From NCBI RefSeq assembly GCF_016405985.1, contig NZ_JAEFCF010000001.1, positions 124,001 through 188,000 of the forward strand: a stretch of DNA of 64,000 nucleotides, given 5' to 3'. The stretch's first letter is position 1, and the number at the start of each line of letters is the position of its first letter. Of this stretch, positions 21,664-28,149 are shown in pieces. The notes below the pieces were generated by a model. That model was not told the DNA's origin. It saw only the letters and a list, made by a program, of their open reading frames with translations, and did no database searches. This DNA comes from Paracoccus sp. IB05. Lineage in GTDB: Bacteria; Pseudomonadota; Alphaproteobacteria; Rhodobacterales; Rhodobacteraceae. Both the position numbers and the translations under genes were made by a program.

Positions 21664-22128
21664 TCAGTCCTGCGCGCCATGTGCCGGGCGTGGCCCCCCT
21701 GGACGCAGCCCCCAACACCTCCCCACCGGCTCGGGCTCAGGCGCTGAGGCCGGCGCGTCGCACAGGATCGCATCGGGCCATATTGCCAGCGCCCGGGCAA
21801 TCGCAACCTGCTGTTGCTGACCGCCCGAGAGTCGGGTCGAGCGTTGGGCCGAACAGGCCCCTGCCCCGGTGCCGGGATCCAGCCGGTCAGGCAACGCCAT
21901 GCCGTGATCGCGGGAAGCAGCAGCGGCCTCGACTTTCACTCAGATCTGACCCTCGGTCACATATTCCAGCGCGGTGCGATGCGGAAAGAGGTTGAAGCGC
22001 AGGACCACCATAGTGCCTCTGGTATGCAGCAGCCGGATCGCGGGGCCGCGCGCATCGACCTTTTCACCCGCAAAGGTGGTCTTGCCACTCGCATAGGTTT
22101 CCAGCCCGCTCACGCAGCGCATCATCAT
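21664..22128 (-). pseudogene. Dead amino-acid ABC transporter ATPase (GlnQ-like)
   Basis: The minus strand reads, in one frame, CVSGLETYASGKTTFAGEK, RFNLFPHRTALEYVTEGQI, an in-frame TGA at 21940-21942, then RLSGGQQQQVAIARALAIWP and DAILCDAPASAPEPEPVG. These match the Q-loop, signature (SGGQQQ) and Walker B region of GlnQ/HisP ATPases. The Walker A part is missing, the catalytic Glu is changed (CDAP for FDEP), and the end is lost near 21700. It is therefore a decayed copy, possibly left from an amino-acid porter that once stood beside the replication module. Confidence 0.75.
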
Positions 22129-22490
22129 ACCCCAACATGCCGACGGATTGCACGGCCCTTGGCTGGCCCTTATCCGCCGCCTCCGGGTCGATGCGGAACA
22201 TTTCCCTGCACTGATCTATGAGGAGCGGTTGGCTTTTGGTGGCTTTTCCTCAGGCCGCGAGCGGAGCCCGGCTTGTGTTTACGCCTGCCGCTACGAGGGG
22301 AGCAATCGCCCGCCGCGCGGAGCTTTCACCTCGCATAGTGGGGTCGGCGATTGCTGAGGGCAGTGGTTCTGCCTCGAATGAATGCGCCGGGCACGGGAGC
22401 GCAGTGCCGCGTATGTACCTGCGGCGGAGTGCCCCCTGGAAATACCCCTGCCCTTCTGAAATAATCCACTTGTTATCAATACATTAACTT
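22129..22490. other. Gene-free stretch downstream of parB
   Basis: No credible coding region, RNA or terminator was seen. The last 40 bases before the parB stop are A+T-rich, with a short inverted repeat GTTA/TAAC around 22474-22490. Confidence 0.35.
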
Positions 22491-23552
22491 CTATCCGAGT
22501 GCCCGCGCCATTTCACGCATCACCCGCTCGACAATCTCTCGGGTGGCCGCGCGGCCTCCAAGCCGGATTGACCAGCCTTTCGCGTCTTCCTGCGCCTCAA
22601 GCCGGAACCCCGAAGGCGACAGCACCGGCGCCAGCACGTCCCGTTTCGGCCGTCCGCCGCGTTTCGGGTCTGCCACCTTTGGTGCCAGACCGGCCAGGGC
22701 CTGATCCAGAAGCGTCGCCTCTTCCTCGGGATTGGCTGGCGTGGTCAGGGCGAGTGCCTCGCGCAAGGCGCCCTCTGCGCCCTCGCGCAGCGCCGTGGCG
22801 AGCCGCAGCCCGTCCTTCTCACGCAACTGTTCGGGGAAGGAAAGCATATCGCCGAGCTCTTCGAAGATCAGCGCGAAGGAACGGATCTTTGACCGTTTCC
22901 CCTTCGAGGCCACCGGGAACAGCGCCTCAACCGCCGCCTCGACATTGGGGAAAGCACCTTGCTGCGCCGCCAGCACCGCGATGCGACCGCGCTCGAACTG
23001 GCTGAGACCGGCGCGGACCTCATTCTCTTCGACCATGGCGGCAATCGGCCCGCCAAGGGTCTCGGGGTCACGCAGCACCGCGCGGATGCGCTCGTAACGG
23101 CTGTCGCCGCTCAGCGCCCGGAGCGCCCGGACCGCCATCAGCCGCCGGTAGCCCGACAAAAGCCCGTAGCCCCCGGAGGGCAGCGCGAAGACCTCGACCG
23201 GCAGGCGGAGCCCGTTCTTCGCGATGGAAAGCTTCAGCTCCTCCATCTCCTCGGCCCCGATCGAGCTGCGGTCGCGCACCAGGGCATCGGCCTCGATCCC
23301 GTCGGTCGCAAGGTCGAGCATCACCAGCCCCTGCCCCTGCGCCTCGCGCCAGGCGCTGGCGTCCTGCCGGTCACGCGCGACCTCGGCCCGTTCGGCCGCC
23401 GGTCGTGGATCCAGCGCCGCCGCCGCTTCGGCCGCAACCGTGGCAATCGGGGCTACTGTCGGGCGCGGCAGCGAGGTTTCGCGGCGAAACTCTTCTTCAA
23501 CGCGGTTGATGTCTTCGGCCGATGGCGGCACGAGCGTTCTGCGTTTTGCCAT
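22491..23552 (-). CDS. parB: ParB-type plasmid partition protein
   Basis: A 353-residue ParB/RepB-family centromere-binding protein. The ParB/Srx-like domain covers about residues 70-180 (RDRSSIGAEEMEELKLSIAK, then GLRLPVEVFALPSGGYGLLS and GYRRLMAVRAL), followed by a helix-turn-helix region (about 190-260: GLSQFERGRIAVLAAQQG). The ATG at 23552 has GGGAGGG upstream and lies 4 bases after the parA stop, so the two genes are coupled. A palindrome closely matching ones in parA and rep lies in its N-terminal coding part (23474-23492), a likely parS site. Confidence 0.88.
   Translation of the reverse strand: MAKRRTLVPPSAEDINRVEEEFRRETSLPRPTVAPIATVAAEAAAALDPRPAAERAEVARDRQDASAWREAQGQGLVMLDLATDGIEADALVRDRSSIGAEEMEELKLSIAKNGLRLPVEVFALPSGGYGLLSGYRRLMAVRALRALSGDSRYERIRAVLRDPETLGGPIAAMVEENEVRAGLSQFERGRIAVLAAQQGAFPNVEAAVEALFPVASKGKRSKIRSFALIFEELGDMLSFPEQLREKDGLRLATALREGAEGALREALALTTPANPEEEATLLDQALAGLAPKVADPKRGGRPKRDVLAPVLSPSGFRLEAQEDAKGWSIRLGGRAATREIVERVMREMARALG
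23474..23492. other. parS-like palindrome, copy 1 (in parB)
   Basis: GTTTCGCGGCGAAAC at 23476-23490 has 7-bp arms around a central G. It matches the core of the two perfect 9-bp-arm copies in parA and rep, with a mismatch in one outer arm. Given its place inside the partition locus, it is probably a ParB-binding centromere site. Confidence 0.6.
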
Positions 23553-23556
23553 AGTC

Positions 23557-24969
23557 TCAGCCCTCCCCATCTGCAGTGGTGCCCGCTTTGGCCAGCTGTT
23601 GATCCCGCCACCAGGTGCCAAGGATCAGCTCTTTCACCTCGGCCCAGGTACGATCGAACGTCTCGCGCCCGCGCACCCAGGTGTCACGATTGTAATCGCG
23701 GTAATCGGTCTCATAGATGCCTGAAACCTGCTCGCCGGCCTGGCCGACCATGGCCGTCACCTCCTGGCGGTAGGTGGTCATGAAATCGCCAAACCAGGCC
23801 TGAACAACATTCGCCAGATCGGTCTGTTGCGCCGCATCGAACCGGGTGATCAGTGCCCGGACGGCATCCCATTCGAACCGCATCTCGGGCAGGCCCGAGC
23901 CACGTCGCGCCCGGTTCTCGCCTTCTTCGATCGAGGCGAAGGTGGAATAGATCATGTCGAAGAACCGCCCCGTCGAATCGAATTCGAGGAAGGACGCCCC
24001 GAGCGGTACCAGCAGGATATCGGCTGCCGCCAGCGCATTGATCGTCAGATAGCCAAGCGCCGGCGGGGTATCGAGCAGTACGAGATCATATTCATCCAGC
24101 AACCCGCCTTCCGTAAGCGCATTCGACAGCGCGTCCCAGAGCTGCCAGGATCTGAGCTGCATCCGCCAGACCGGCACCTGGAACTCGGCCCAGTACAGGT
24201 TCAGCTGCGCCCCGATCAGGTCGATATTCGGCCAATGGGTCTTTTGCACCAGGTTTCGCGGCGAAACCTTCAGCGCCTCGGTCAGAGTTTCATCAAAGGT
24301 AAACGGCGCGTCCCCATTGGCAACACGCACCTCGTTCTCCTCCTGCAGCCGCAGCGCATAGTCACGGGCGAGCAGCGGGAAGACCGTCTTCCATTCATCC
24401 TCGACCTTGCCGCCCATGATCGAGGTCATCGAGCCCTGGCTGTCGAGGTCGATCACCAGAACCTTATAGCCATCGAGCGCGGCGGACATGGCCAGATGTG
24501 CCGCGGTGGAGGTCTTGCCGACGCCGCCCTTGAAATTCGCAATGGCAACGACTTTGGCGGGCAGGCCCTCGGGGCGCCAGGCGCGGTATTCCCGCCCGCG
24601 CGCACCTTCGGCAGCGAAATGGTCGCGCAGCGCCAGCACCTCTTCGAGCGTGAACCATTTCGAGCCGCCCTCCCCTTCGCCCTGCGGCAGTTCCGGGTTG
24701 AGCCGCAGGACGCGCCGCAGATGGGCGGAATTGACCGGGATCAGATAGCGGCAGACTTCCCAGGTCGAGAACCGGCGCAGTCGCTTTTTGCCATCCGGCG
24801 CATAGCCCCGCTTCGCCAGATCATCGCGGCCCCGGCTGGCGAAAGCCGCGGCCTTGGCAAAGCGCGCGGTATCGATGGGATCCGCCAGCCTTGCCGCGGC
24901 CTGGGCCGGGTCGATGTTGAAATAGGGGGGGAGATCCGTCTTGCCCGGAAGCACTGGTTTCTGTGCCAT
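23557..24969 (-). CDS. parA: ParA-type plasmid partition ATPase
   Basis: A 470-residue ParA/RepA ATPase. An N-terminal region of about 120 residues contains a MerR-like helix-turn-helix (RRFSTWEVCRYLIPVNSAHLR), as in plasmid ParA proteins that repress their own promoter. The deviant Walker A reads FKGGVGKTSTAAHLA (about 149-163), followed by LVIDLDSQGSMTS and the Walker B DLVLLDTPPALGYLTINALA. It moves plasmid copies with ParB. The long C-terminal part is typical of alphaproteobacterial extrachromosomal replicons. It is divergent to rep, with the likely origin between them. Confidence 0.92.
   Translation of the reverse strand: MAQKPVLPGKTDLPPYFNIDPAQAAARLADPIDTARFAKAAAFASRGRDDLAKRGYAPDGKKRLRRFSTWEVCRYLIPVNSAHLRRVLRLNPELPQGEGEGGSKWFTLEEVLALRDHFAAEGARGREYRAWRPEGLPAKVVAIANFKGGVGKTSTAAHLAMSAALDGYKVLVIDLDSQGSMTSIMGGKVEDEWKTVFPLLARDYALRLQEENEVRVANGDAPFTFDETLTEALKVSPRNLVQKTHWPNIDLIGAQLNLYWAEFQVPVWRMQLRSWQLWDALSNALTEGGLLDEYDLVLLDTPPALGYLTINALAAADILLVPLGASFLEFDSTGRFFDMIYSTFASIEEGENRARRGSGLPEMRFEWDAVRALITRFDAAQQTDLANVVQAWFGDFMTTYRQEVTAMVGQAGEQVSGIYETDYRDYNRDTWVRGRETFDRTWAEVKELILGTWWRDQQLAKAGTTADGEG
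24251..24269. other. parS-like palindrome, copy 2 (in parA)
   Basis: AGGTTTCGC, a central G, then GCGAAACCT: a perfect 9-bp inverted repeat with a one-base centre, inside the parA coding sequence. Confidence 0.65.
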
Positions 24970-25150
24970 TCTTTGCCTGTATGTTCGCAGTTTATGCTGA
25001 TATTGCCCGAACTATGGCACATCATGGGCCAGAAGGGAATCATTCCTGTCCATCTGATCACTGATCTTTCTGGATTTTATCGGAAAGAGAGAACAAAGCA
25101 GTCTCTGTTTCATAATCTTTTTTCGCTTTAGAGTCTTTACCAGGTCACTA

Positions 25151-25199
25151 ATCCTGCAAAAACAGTGTCTTCTGGCAGGATGGGTGCCCCGATACGGGG
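25151..25199. repeat. Two hairpin-forming repeats at the left edge of the origin region
   Basis: ATCCTGC (25151-25157) and GCAGGAT (25175-25181) form a perfect 7-bp inverted repeat. Just after it, CCCCG-ATA-CGGGG (about 25187-25199) is a short perfect hairpin. They border the GGTATCC repeats of the candidate origin. Confidence 0.5.
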
Positions 25200-25204
25200 T
25201 GATG

Positions 25205-25476
25205 GGTATCCGGTTTCAGGACATTAGGTATCCGTTTGCGGGAAGAGAGGTGCCGATTCCCGGGCGAGGGCGGAGTTTTGTGGATAAGTGACCCATAAAT
25301 GGCAGGCATAGAGCCTGTTTCTCCGAATCATCCACAGGCCGGACCCCGTTGGGCAGGGATGCTTCCTGCAAACGGATACCTTTCCCGAAGCGGCAGGATA
25401 GCTCAGGTTCCCGTTTACGGTTCGGCCTTCTGCCTGGCCCTGAGGGTTCCCGTCCGGTTCTTGCATTTGGATACCT
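25205..25476. other. Candidate replication origin (oriV)
   Basis: Between divergent parA and rep there are four GGTATCC-type elements: 25205-25213 and 25226-25239 on the plus strand, and 25368-25381 and 25469-25476 on the minus strand. The middle pair is a perfect 14-bp inverted match (AGGTATCCGTTTGC). Between them lie a perfect DnaA box, TGTGGATAA at 25279-25287, and a near match, TCATCCACA, at 25328-25336. A direct repeat GGTTCCCGT, each copy followed shortly by GGTTC, occurs at 25406-25414 and 25445-25453. An A+T-rich tract of about 75 bases sits at 25060-25135. This is the usual makeup of an iteron/DnaA-dependent plasmid origin. Confidence 0.6.
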
Positions 25477-25585
25477 TTTGCCGGATGATCCCGCCATAAC
25501 AAGAGCGACAGACGGGATTCGGCGATGGGCCGGGCGTCTGCGCAATGACCGGATTACAGATCCGGCGCTGAGCGAGGGCAGGCCG

Positions 25586-26842
25586 ATGCAGATCCCGGAA
25601 CGGGTCACAGAAGACAGGGTTTCAGACAGGACCGGAACAGAGGACATTCCGCGTGACCGGCTGAGCGGGCCGCTCAGGCGCGGCGCGGTTAAAAAGCACG
25701 TGGCGGCGATCCATGTCTCGGGGAAGCTGAGCCTGCTTCAGCGCAAGCTGTCGAACGTGCTCCTGCTCAATGCCTATGACACCCTGACCTCGCAGCCGCG
25801 CCATCAGATCGATGCGCGCACGCTTTGCCTGATGATCGGCTATAATTCGAATGATATGGAGACGCTGAAAGCGTCTCTGCGCGGGCTGGCCGAGACGGTG
25901 GCGGAATGGGACATGCTTGACGCCGATGGTCAGCAGGAATGGGGGGTCTCGGCACTGCTGGCCTATGCAAAACTCAAGGGCGGCGTTTGCGAATATGCCT
26001 ATTCGCCGGCGCTGGCGGAAAAGCTGCATGACCCCAAGGTATTCGCGCTGATCAATCTCAACATCCAGCGGCGGTTCACGTCGGGCCATGCGCTGGCGCT
26101 GTATGAGAATTGTTATCGCTTTATCCGCACCGGTTCGACCGGGTGGTGGTCGCTGGATATTTTCCGCCGGCTGATGGGGGTGGCGGACAGCCCCTATTAT
26201 GATGAGTTCAAGCATCTGAACGCCAAGATCATCAAGCCTGCCGTGAGTGAGGTGAACAAGACGTCGAATATCGTGGTGACACCGGATTTTCGCAAAATGG
26301 GCCGTCAGGTGACGGAGATCCGGTTCCTGATTGCCGAGAACCCGCAGCTTGCGATCCTTGATATGGATGATGGCGAGGGGCATCGCAATTCAGATGCCTA
26401 TGCGCGGCTCAGGGCGCTTGGGGTCTCGGACCGGCTGGCGCGTCAATGGATCCAGGAACATGGCGAGGATCATCTGCGCCAGAAGCTTGACTATGTGGCG
26501 GGGCAGGGCGGCGTAAGGAACGCGGTCGGCTATCTGTCGAAAGTGCTGAAGGAAGGCGCCGCGAAAGATGCGGCGGAGGTTTCGCCGCGAAACCTTACCG
26601 CAGCGGGCGCGCTTTCGCCGCGGGCGCAACGGCTCGCCAGGATCCAGGCGCTGGCCCAGGCGCGGACACCGACACAGCGTGATGCGGACCGCCGCCTGTT
26701 TCAGGCGCGGCTTGATGGCGCAGCCCGCGATGATTTTGAACGTCATGGCTGGATGTCGGCGCTGAACGCTGCGGCTATTCTTGTGTTTTGGGAAGAGGTC
26801 TCGCCCGGGGCCTTTGACGGTATCGCAGGAGGGGCGGAGTGA
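25586..26842 (+). CDS. Plasmid replication initiation protein
   Basis: A 418-residue initiator of the Rep_3/RepB-like type found on Rhodobacterales plasmids. The segment VSGKLSLLQRKLSNVLLLNAY at about residue 49 and RHQIDARTLCLMIGYNSNDM are characteristic of the first winged-helix domain. WWSLDIFRRLMGVADSPYYDE and FKHLNAKIIKPAVSEVNKTS, then TEIRFLI, mark the second. The ATG at 25586 follows GAGGGCAGG. It is divergent from parAB across the candidate origin. Its stop overlaps the GTG start of the downstream regulator (GTGA), and a parS-like palindrome lies in its 3' half. Confidence 0.85.
   Translation: MQIPERVTEDRVSDRTGTEDIPRDRLSGPLRRGAVKKHVAAIHVSGKLSLLQRKLSNVLLLNAYDTLTSQPRHQIDARTLCLMIGYNSNDMETLKASLRGLAETVAEWDMLDADGQQEWGVSALLAYAKLKGGVCEYAYSPALAEKLHDPKVFALINLNIQRRFTSGHALALYENCYRFIRTGSTGWWSLDIFRRLMGVADSPYYDEFKHLNAKIIKPAVSEVNKTSNIVVTPDFRKMGRQVTEIRFLIAENPQLAILDMDDGEGHRNSDAYARLRALGVSDRLARQWIQEHGEDHLRQKLDYVAGQGGVRNAVGYLSKVLKEGAAKDAAEVSPRNLTAAGALSPRAQRLARIQALAQARTPTQRDADRRLFQARLDGAARDDFERHGWMSALNAAAILVFWEEVSPGAFDGIAGGAE
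26577..26595. other. parS-like palindrome, copy 3 (in rep)
   Basis: AGGTTTCGC, a central C, then GCGAAACCT: identical to the copy in parA but in the opposite orientation. In both genes the site encodes the peptide VSPRNL because the palindrome reads alike on either strand. Confidence 0.65.
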
Positions 26843-27867
26843 GCGCACGGTCTTTCATCTCGCGCGGGGTAGCCCATATCGACGTGCCGCATCAGGGGGC
26901 GCCGGTCTCGGTCGGGTTTGTGCTTTTGCCGCAATTCACCATGCTGGCTTTCACCTCGGCGGTGGAGCCTTTGCGGGTGGCAAACCAGCTGGCGGGGAAG
27001 ACGCTGTTTGAATGGGCGGTCTGGTCGTCTGAGGGCGAGCAGGTCACGGCCTCGAACGGGATGCGGGTCGGGGTCGATGGCGGGCTGCCACCCGAGGCCC
27101 CTTCGGGCTATGTGCTGATCTGCGCCGGGACCGAGCCGGAGATGACCACCACGCGGCGGATGTCGGACTGGATCCGGGTGCAATGGCGGCGCGGCCGGAC
27201 GGTTGGCAGTCTTTGCACCGGGGCCTATACGCTGGCGAAAGCGGGGATCCTCAAAGACCGGCAGTTCACGCTGCATTGGGAAAACATCCCCGGATTTGTC
27301 GAGACCTATCCGGAGCTCGAGCCGCTGCGCCGGGTGTTTTGCATCGACAACCGGGTGATCACCTGTGCCGGCGGCATCGCCTCGGCCGAACTGGTGGTCA
27401 AGCTGATCTCGGAACATTACGGGCCGGCTTTGGCGCAGGCGGTGATGGATATGTGCCTGCTGACCCATATGCGGCGCGAAAGCGATGATCAGATGACCTC
27501 GCTCGCGTCGCGGCTGGGCACGCGGAACGAGCATGTCGTCAAGGCCGTGGCCTGGCTGGAGGGGCGGCTGTCAGAGGATTTCCTGCTGGAGGAATGCGCC
27601 GATCATGTCGGTGTCACGCCGCGCCAGATCCAGCGGTTGTTCCGCCGCTATCTCGGCGTGACGCCGGTGCAATATCTGAACGGGCTGCGGCTGTCGCATG
27701 GCAGGCTTTTGCTGTCCGAGACCAATATGACGGTGATGGAAGTGGCCGTGGCCTGTGGCTATGTTTCCTCGTCGCATTTTGCGCGCAGCTTCCGGCAGAA
27801 ATATGGGGTTTCGCCGAACAAGTATTCACATTTCCCCGGCGGCGCGCGCAGCGAACTGCCGGTATAG
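26839..27867 (+). CDS. GlxA-type AraC family regulator (DJ-1/PfpI plus AraC HTH)
   Basis: A 342-residue regulator. The N-terminal DJ-1/PfpI-like domain (about 18-190) has VGFVLLPQFTMLAFTSAVEP and the elbow-like VGSLCTGAYTLAKAGIL. The C-terminal AraC domain (about 225-330) reads HVGVTPRQIQRLFRRYLGVT, then MEVAVACGYVSSSHFARSFR. This architecture is shared with GbdR/CdhR regulators of choline, betaine and carnitine use, and the next genes are a betaine-type ABC porter, so it probably controls them. The GTG start overlaps the rep stop codon, so it may be translated together with the initiator. Confidence 0.85.
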   Translation: MSARSFISRGVAHIDVPHQGAPVSVGFVLLPQFTMLAFTSAVEPLRVANQLAGKTLFEWAVWSSEGEQVTASNGMRVGVDGGLPPEAPSGYVLICAGTEPEMTTTRRMSDWIRVQWRRGRTVGSLCTGAYTLAKAGILKDRQFTLHWENIPGFVETYPELEPLRRVFCIDNRVITCAGGIASAELVVKLISEHYGPALAQAVMDMCLLTHMRRESDDQMTSLASRLGTRNEHVVKAVAWLEGRLSEDFLLEECADHVGVTPRQIQRLFRRYLGVTPVQYLNGLRLSHGRLLLSETNMTVMEVAVACGYVSSSHFARSFRQKYGVSPNKYSHFPGGARSELPV

Positions 27868-27944
27868 TCCGGGGCTGCACCCGCCACAGGGGGCAGAGGG
27901 CGAAGGGAAAAATCTGCTAAACCCGGTGATTACCGGACAGGGGT

Positions 27945-27992
27945 CGCAATTCTGCCACTGGTGTCGTAAATTGCGCTGTGACCTGGCAGAAT
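27945..27992 (+). promoter_or_regulatory. Nested inverted repeats upstream of the betaine transporter
   Basis: CGCAATT (27945-27951) pairs with AATTGCG (27969-27975), and ATTCTGCCA (27949-27957) pairs with TGGCAGAAT (27984-27992); both are perfect and interleaved. They lie between the AraC-family regulator and the transporter operon, and are candidate regulator or activator sites. Confidence 0.5.
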
Positions 27993-28149
27993 ATGCGCTG
28001 ACTTCAGGAAAAAGGACTCACCGGCCGACAGAAGGGCAGGGCGGGAAACCGTCAGCATCCGGGACGACGTCGGACGGCATTATCCAATCTGCAGACATGC
28101 GCGGTATCGTCTGGAGATCCTTCAAACAAACCGCAACCGGGAGATGACC

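Follow-up and report, generated by a model that had tools for sequence, protein, structure and literature searches.

Three near-identical palindromes lie inside the parB, parA, and rep genes of one replicon of Paracoccus sp. IB05, and the question that they raise is whether they are centromere (parS) sites bound by ParB. We analyzed them in a window of 64,000 bp (C20:124001-188000 of a 362,311-bp contig), which belongs to an assembly of 5,291,296 bases in 108 contigs (genome G000). We conclude, with a probability of about 0.9, that the three palindromes are parS sites of the parABS system on a low-copy replicon of the RepB (Rep_3) type, to which ParB is predicted to bind. The features are listed in Table 1.

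Table 1. Predicted genes, palindromes, and repeats of the partition and replication module (window positions).
Feature	Position	Strand	Description
parB	22491..23552	-	353 aa, predicted centromere-binding protein; Pfam ParB_N E 0.00099, below family cut-off
putative parS 1	23476..23490	none	GTTTCGCGGCGAAAC, in parB codons ~22-26, read EFRRET
parA	23557..24969	-	470 aa, Walker-type partition ATPase; Pfam AAA_31 E 5.3e-31
putative parS 2	24251..24269	none	AGGTTTCGC-G-GCGAAACCT, in parA codon ~235, read KVSPRNL
four iteron-like repeats	25205..25476	+ (2 in each orientation)	GGTATCCGTTTGCAGGAA-like, between parA and rep
rep	25586..26842	+	418 aa, Rep_3 (RepB-type) initiator; Pfam Rep3_N 1.3e-19, Rep3_C 5.2e-15
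putative parS 3	26577..26595	none	AGGTTTCGC-C-GCGAAACCT, in rep 3' part, codon ~332, read EVSPRNL

The open reading frame map of the window places parA, with its Walker-type product, next to parB on the same strand. For parB we adopted the ATG at the 23552 end, a small correction to the initial annotation, because this start matches those of the aligned relatives. The Rep_3 initiator gene is divergent from parAB, as in RepB-type (Rep_3) Rhodobacterales replicons, and the best plasmid relatives of Rep are 79 to 83% identical. The module matches that of the 72-kb Dinoroseobacter shibae replicon, which is named RepB-I in the portion of the source available (PMC9426580), and by that similarity we label the window replicon RepB-I. 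The iteron-like repeats are a probable replication origin. GC skew flips sign across rep-parAB (window positions 22000 to 28000), with a cumulative minimum at 22 to 24 kb, as at a replication origin. The gene at 26839-27867, which encodes DJ-1/PfpI and AraC-type helix-turn-helix domains, has a start that overlaps the rep stop codon, so it may be cotranscribed with rep. A scan for promoters and terminators gave nothing useful.

We searched the window for the pattern GTTTCGCNGCGAAAC (GTTTCGC-N-GCGAAAC) and found exactly three copies, at 23476-23490, 24253-24267, and 26579-26593. As first described, the parB copy has only the 15-bp core, and the match is longer in parA and rep, where the flanks AGG..CCT are also perfect. 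The statement that the window has no further copy held up even with 1 or 2 mismatches allowed. Five other matches have 3 mismatches each, which is close to chance (8 matches in total; shuffle mean, 4.58; at least 8 in 6 of 100 shuffles). The genome-wide search that the initial annotation had proposed returned these three as the only exact copies in the entire assembly, rather than many unlinked copies at chance frequency. The reversed control pattern had no exact copy in this genome. With up to 1 mismatch, the pattern matched four places, compared with three for the control; the fourth place lies on contig C10, where no relative of ParA, ParB, or Rep is present in the surrounding 11 kb. The palindromic sites are thus clustered near parAB, as in ParABS systems. 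Chance clustering of the three sites was rejected on the basis of genome uniqueness, the mismatch shuffles, and the synonymous shuffles described below.

We then asked how the palindrome is distributed among 295 genomes of the same family, of which 64 hold the exact 15-mer and 54 encode a window-type Rep at an E value of 1e-80 or lower. The exact 15-mer was present in 44 of the 54 Rep-positive genomes versus 20 of the 241 Rep-negative genomes (Fisher, 3.4e-27), and the reversed control was not linked to Rep (2 of 54 and 18 of 241). All 10 Rep-positive genomes without the exact 15-mer hold a near form. Eight of these have a 2-base center (L046, L059, L066, L068, L070, L074, L075, and L082), L043 has GTTTCGT half-sites, and L058 lacks the outer G around its TTTCGC core. 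Since the Rep-negative share is close to the control share, single 15-mer copies fit chance. A check of 30 other genomes, with one 15-mer locus per genome, placed 21 loci at most about 1.5 kb from a relative of ParA, ParB, or Rep; the other 9 had none at that distance. Wider stretches around those nine revealed a RepA-type parA-parB pair about 6 kb from the site in one (L113); the remaining eight, several of which are short contigs, again had no such relative. Among nine further 15-mer places, picked among the matches listed, one (L123) adjoins a RepA-type parAB and eight do not. Two genomes that hold the clustered set also have lone 15-mers on other contigs (L124 to L126 in G249 and L120 in G120), with no partition relative in the flanking stretches of about 10 kb each.

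The positions of the sites were compared across RepB-type loci. All 58 Rep places, including that of the window, plus two named plasmids gave 60 loci; we left out L097 (the same replicon as L063) and nine that lacked one of the three genes, and 50 complete loci were kept. Unless sites are called perfect, one mismatch or the GTTTCGT form was allowed. Of the 50 loci, 49 have a site in one or more of six places and 46 have two or more sites there, the places having been defined on the same loci and their numeric limits fixed at counting. The parB place, at about codon 23, is occupied in 42 loci (perfect sites in 36), and the parA place, at about codon 237, is occupied in 25 (perfect in 18). The noncoding place just after parB also carries a site in 25 loci (perfect in 22), and the one upstream of parA, about 70 to 200 bp from the aligned parA start, does so in 24 (perfect in 15). 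Less often used are the rep 3' place (13 loci; perfect in 12) and the place just after rep (3 loci; perfect in 2). The window (L094) occupies the parB, parA, and rep places, and its parA-rep interval is free of sites. The exception without a site, L090, is a distant RepB locus whose Rep is 50% identical. Outside the six places, 7 loci have perfect copies in coding sequence and 4 have them elsewhere; with up to 1 mismatch, these numbers are 11 and 9. Once the places were recognized, five more RepB loci were hand-picked among 60 listed matches (L098, L099, L100, L107, and L109); each has at least two sites in the places, and some also hold copies outside them. In the 72-kb D. shibae RepB-I replicon (L063/L097) the sites look decayed, with several 1-mismatch TTTCGC-like copies and one perfect copy with a 2-base center.

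We compared these loci with other replicon types, using 13 regions picked among the 60 listed matches (RepB, RepA-type, and DnaA-like). In the RepA-type locus L108, GTTTCGCGCGCGAAAC occurs both between parA and parB and downstream of parB. Two copies lie between parA and parB in L101, a RepA-type locus of the same PLSDB cluster as L103 and L108 whose rep is outside the stretch. L103 has two unlike copies after parB, one with a 1-base and one with a 2-base center, and no repeated palindrome was found in the RepA-type locus L102. All four DnaA-like loci have other repeated palindromes, with a 2-base center and arms GTCCCC, TTACCC, TAACCC, or TTCCCC. L104, L105, and L110 have these words both upstream of parA and downstream of parB, and L106 has its word after parB only; in L104 and L105 the word also occurs near parA codon 330, not 237. 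In Markov simulations (300 per DnaA-like locus), at least three copies never arose and at least two arose in 0 to 12 of 300. Near other ParA loci of the window's genome (L139 to L145) we found the candidate repeated palindromes GTTACCG (C16, DnaA-like), TCATCCG (C39), TTGACCG (C64), and TTTACA (C81) and no repeated palindrome near those on C80 and C43. The canonical parS word TGTTTCACGTGAAACA has two copies near the ParA locus on contig C31, which from this word is presumably the chromosome. This one genome shows the canonical parS and five plasmid-type words. As far as these sequences go, the palindrome word varies with replicon type.

The sites in the window are all in coding sequence, and one could suppose that conserved peptides (VSPRNL and EFRRET) and codon bias produce the palindrome incidentally. 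In keeping with this, the parA and rep sites both encode VSPRNL, as the initial annotation had noted, and all 24 parA sites found are read in one common frame. However, when we shuffled synonymous codons in the window genes, keeping protein and codon usage, only 89 of 20,000 shuffles yielded a copy in parB, 55 of 20,000 in parA, and 27 of 20,000 in rep; by our own arithmetic, the product of these rates is about 2e-8. The relatives gave the same picture for TTTCGC-N(1-2)-GCGAAA in 500 synonymous shuffles, with genes unreadable as one open frame left out: 40 sites in 51 parB genes (shuffle mean, 1.5; maximum, 6), 25 sites in 52 parA genes (mean, 0.15; maximum, 2), and 13 sites in 54 rep genes (mean, 0.05; maximum, 1). 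Moreover, the parB place is read in three ways, as EFRxET (1-base center, phase 0), GFARET (2-base center), or GFAxKP (1-base center, phase 2). Given these three readings and a center of 1 or 2 bases, the DNA word is kept there and not the peptide. VSxRN occurs in all 24 parA products with the site and in 1 of 25 without it (L071); products without it vary at this position (VSARDI, ITAADV, TTPSDV, and others) between conserved flanks. Of the 13 rep sites, 11 read VSxRN, and the 2 others, both in L038, read GFAAKP in another frame. The same word also occurs in noncoding DNA. We therefore rejected peptide-driven conservation, which on the synonymous shuffles, the frame changes at the parB place, and the parA and rep peptide comparison is hardly credible. 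Since VSxRN tracks the site, siteless parA peptides vary, and rep also reads GFAAKP, VSPRNL is best explained as a consequence of the DNA word. The suggestion that protein and DNA constraint are combined at VSPRNL was thus not borne out, as we see no second constraint. Going by the synonymous shuffles, the three parB readings, and the tracking of the site by VSxRN, the sites are under selection as DNA.

Selection on DNA could also reflect a binding role other than that of a centromere. If the sites were mainly an operator for autoregulation by ParB or ParA, and not a centromere, this would fit the 24 of 50 loci with a site upstream of parA, and KorB, a ParB relative, also acts as a repressor in the part of the literature at hand (PMC11790492). 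Yet the window lacks a site between parA and rep, sites in the rep 3' part and after parB are badly placed for promoter control, and both roles can coexist; we consider a mainly operator role quite improbable. Binding by another protein, such as an initiator, a recombinase, or a global regulator, would make the proximity to parAB incidental. One site does lie within rep, and binding by ParB is a prediction. But DnaA-like replicons, with related parAB and a different initiator, use other words upstream of parA and after parB; iteron-like repeats of different sequence already adjoin rep; and the uniqueness of the sites in the genome speaks against a global regulator. We regard this alternative as highly improbable. 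Relatives keep the word at the same spots despite different protein readings, so the palindromes are very probably landing sites for ParB.

The structure model of the parB product (pLDDT, 86.7; pTM, 0.54) has Foldseek matches to Noc, RK2 KorB, and ParB structures at E values under 1e-5, with the KorB rows at 16 to 18% identity. A sequence search of solved structures gave two weak matches only (best E value, 0.14). By its predicted fold, ParB would have a CTP-binding N domain and a DNA-binding domain. The Pfam ParB_N match under the cut-off and the pTM of the model count against the parS reading, as do the siteless L090, the copies outside the six places, the RepA-type loci L102 and L103, and loci with mixed center lengths. 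Of the 47 other products in the alignment, 46 are 42 to 67% identical to this ParB, and that of L090 is 32% identical. The alignment has invariant SG-x-RR and ENE-x-R columns, which we take to be the CTP pocket. The original impression that the palindromes look like parS is supported by their fixed places, DNA-level selection, variation with replicon type, and an adjoining predicted ParB fold. We infer the usual cycle, in which a ParB dimer would recognize both GTTTCGC half-sites and load there, close as a CTP clamp, and spread from each site over the rep-parAB region, and in which ParA would then carry partition complexes apart. Such a complex would form on the replication module itself, with two of its sites in parB and parA and the third in rep.

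We also found that the center length of the parB site agrees with that of the noncoding sites of the same locus (27 loci). Only 2 of 100,000 permutations were as concordant, a figure that overstates independence because the loci share ancestry; L046 and part of L077 have mixed center lengths. On a ParB tree of 48 rows, with N-terminal columns excluded and the deepest forks weak, raw counts gave 2 changes in center length at the parB place, 5 at other places, and 3 in reading. GFARET, with its 2-base center, has its left half in common with GFAxKP and its right half in common with EFRxET, both of which have a 1-base center. Among the RepA-type loci, 2 of the 4 seen have a 2-base center and a third holds one copy of each form. 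Because GFARET shares halves with both 1-base readings and RepA-type loci use a 2-base center, the 2-base form may be ancestral. One scenario, which we put forward tentatively and at slightly less than even odds, is that the centromere word walks base by base against the parB frame, the 2-base form having collapsed twice to a 1-base center, each time in another frame, and the remaining sites of the replicon having followed along with ParB. If this is true, such steps could create new compatibility groups.

The sites resemble several known systems. RepABC palindromes of Rhodobacterales and Rhizobiales are bound by the ParB-like RepB, and their words mark compatibility groups; like the window sites, they are replicon specific, lie near partition and replication genes, and are sometimes inside coding sequence, according to the portions available of three papers (PMC9040568, PMC5613091, and PMC9426580). 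The RepABC consensus given there, GTTNNNNGCNNNNAAC, is an even 16-mer (PMC9040568), in line with the initial remark that the odd center differs from it. RepABC replicons also have one repABC operon, whereas the window has an odd 15-mer (with a 2-base center in some relatives) and a Rep_3 gene divergent from parAB. Assignment to RepABC parS was rejected, given the odd 15-mer and the Rep_3 initiator. The KorB operator OB of RK2, TTTAGCGGCTAAA, is given in the accessible text as a 13-bp odd-centered word, TTTAGC-G-GCTAAA (PMC5577506). It has the same odd center and the same outer TTT/AAA, and KorB structures are among the matches of the ParB model; it differs by one base per half-site (TTTAGC versus TTTCGC), and KorB is also a repressor. 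Identity with the KorB operator was rejected, since TTTCGC-N-GCGAAA is one base off per half-site. The canonical parS shares the GTTTC..GAAAC arms with the window sites but has an even center and CAC/GTG in place of CGC/GCG. Mycobacterium bovis BCG has a putative parS inside parA; that site is chromosomal, has the even canonical word, and is presented in the excerpt available with no change of reading frame (PMC2346475). The best reading is an odd-centered, KorB-operator-like parS set of a RepB-type replicon.

RepABC parS words, their link with compatibility, and parS within coding sequence are thus already in print, in the parts of these sources available (PMC9040568, PMC5613091, PMC9426580, and PMC2346475). 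In the open-access literature searched we found no parS of RepB-type replicons, which may have been described earlier in the 2009 RepABC or 2011 DnaA-like papers; no centromere sequences of RepB-, RepA-, or DnaA-like replicons; and no frame-shifting in-gene parS. The parB site clearly exemplifies a DNA signal in a coding region that is retained while the protein reading changes. The 1- and 2-base centers allow a direct test of the half-site spacing that a ParB tolerates, and the conserved places offer a simple rule for finding the centromeres of such replicons. RepB-, RepA-, and DnaA-like replicons share cells with RepABC replicons, whose centromeres are described, and centromere words should help to predict which replicons can coexist.
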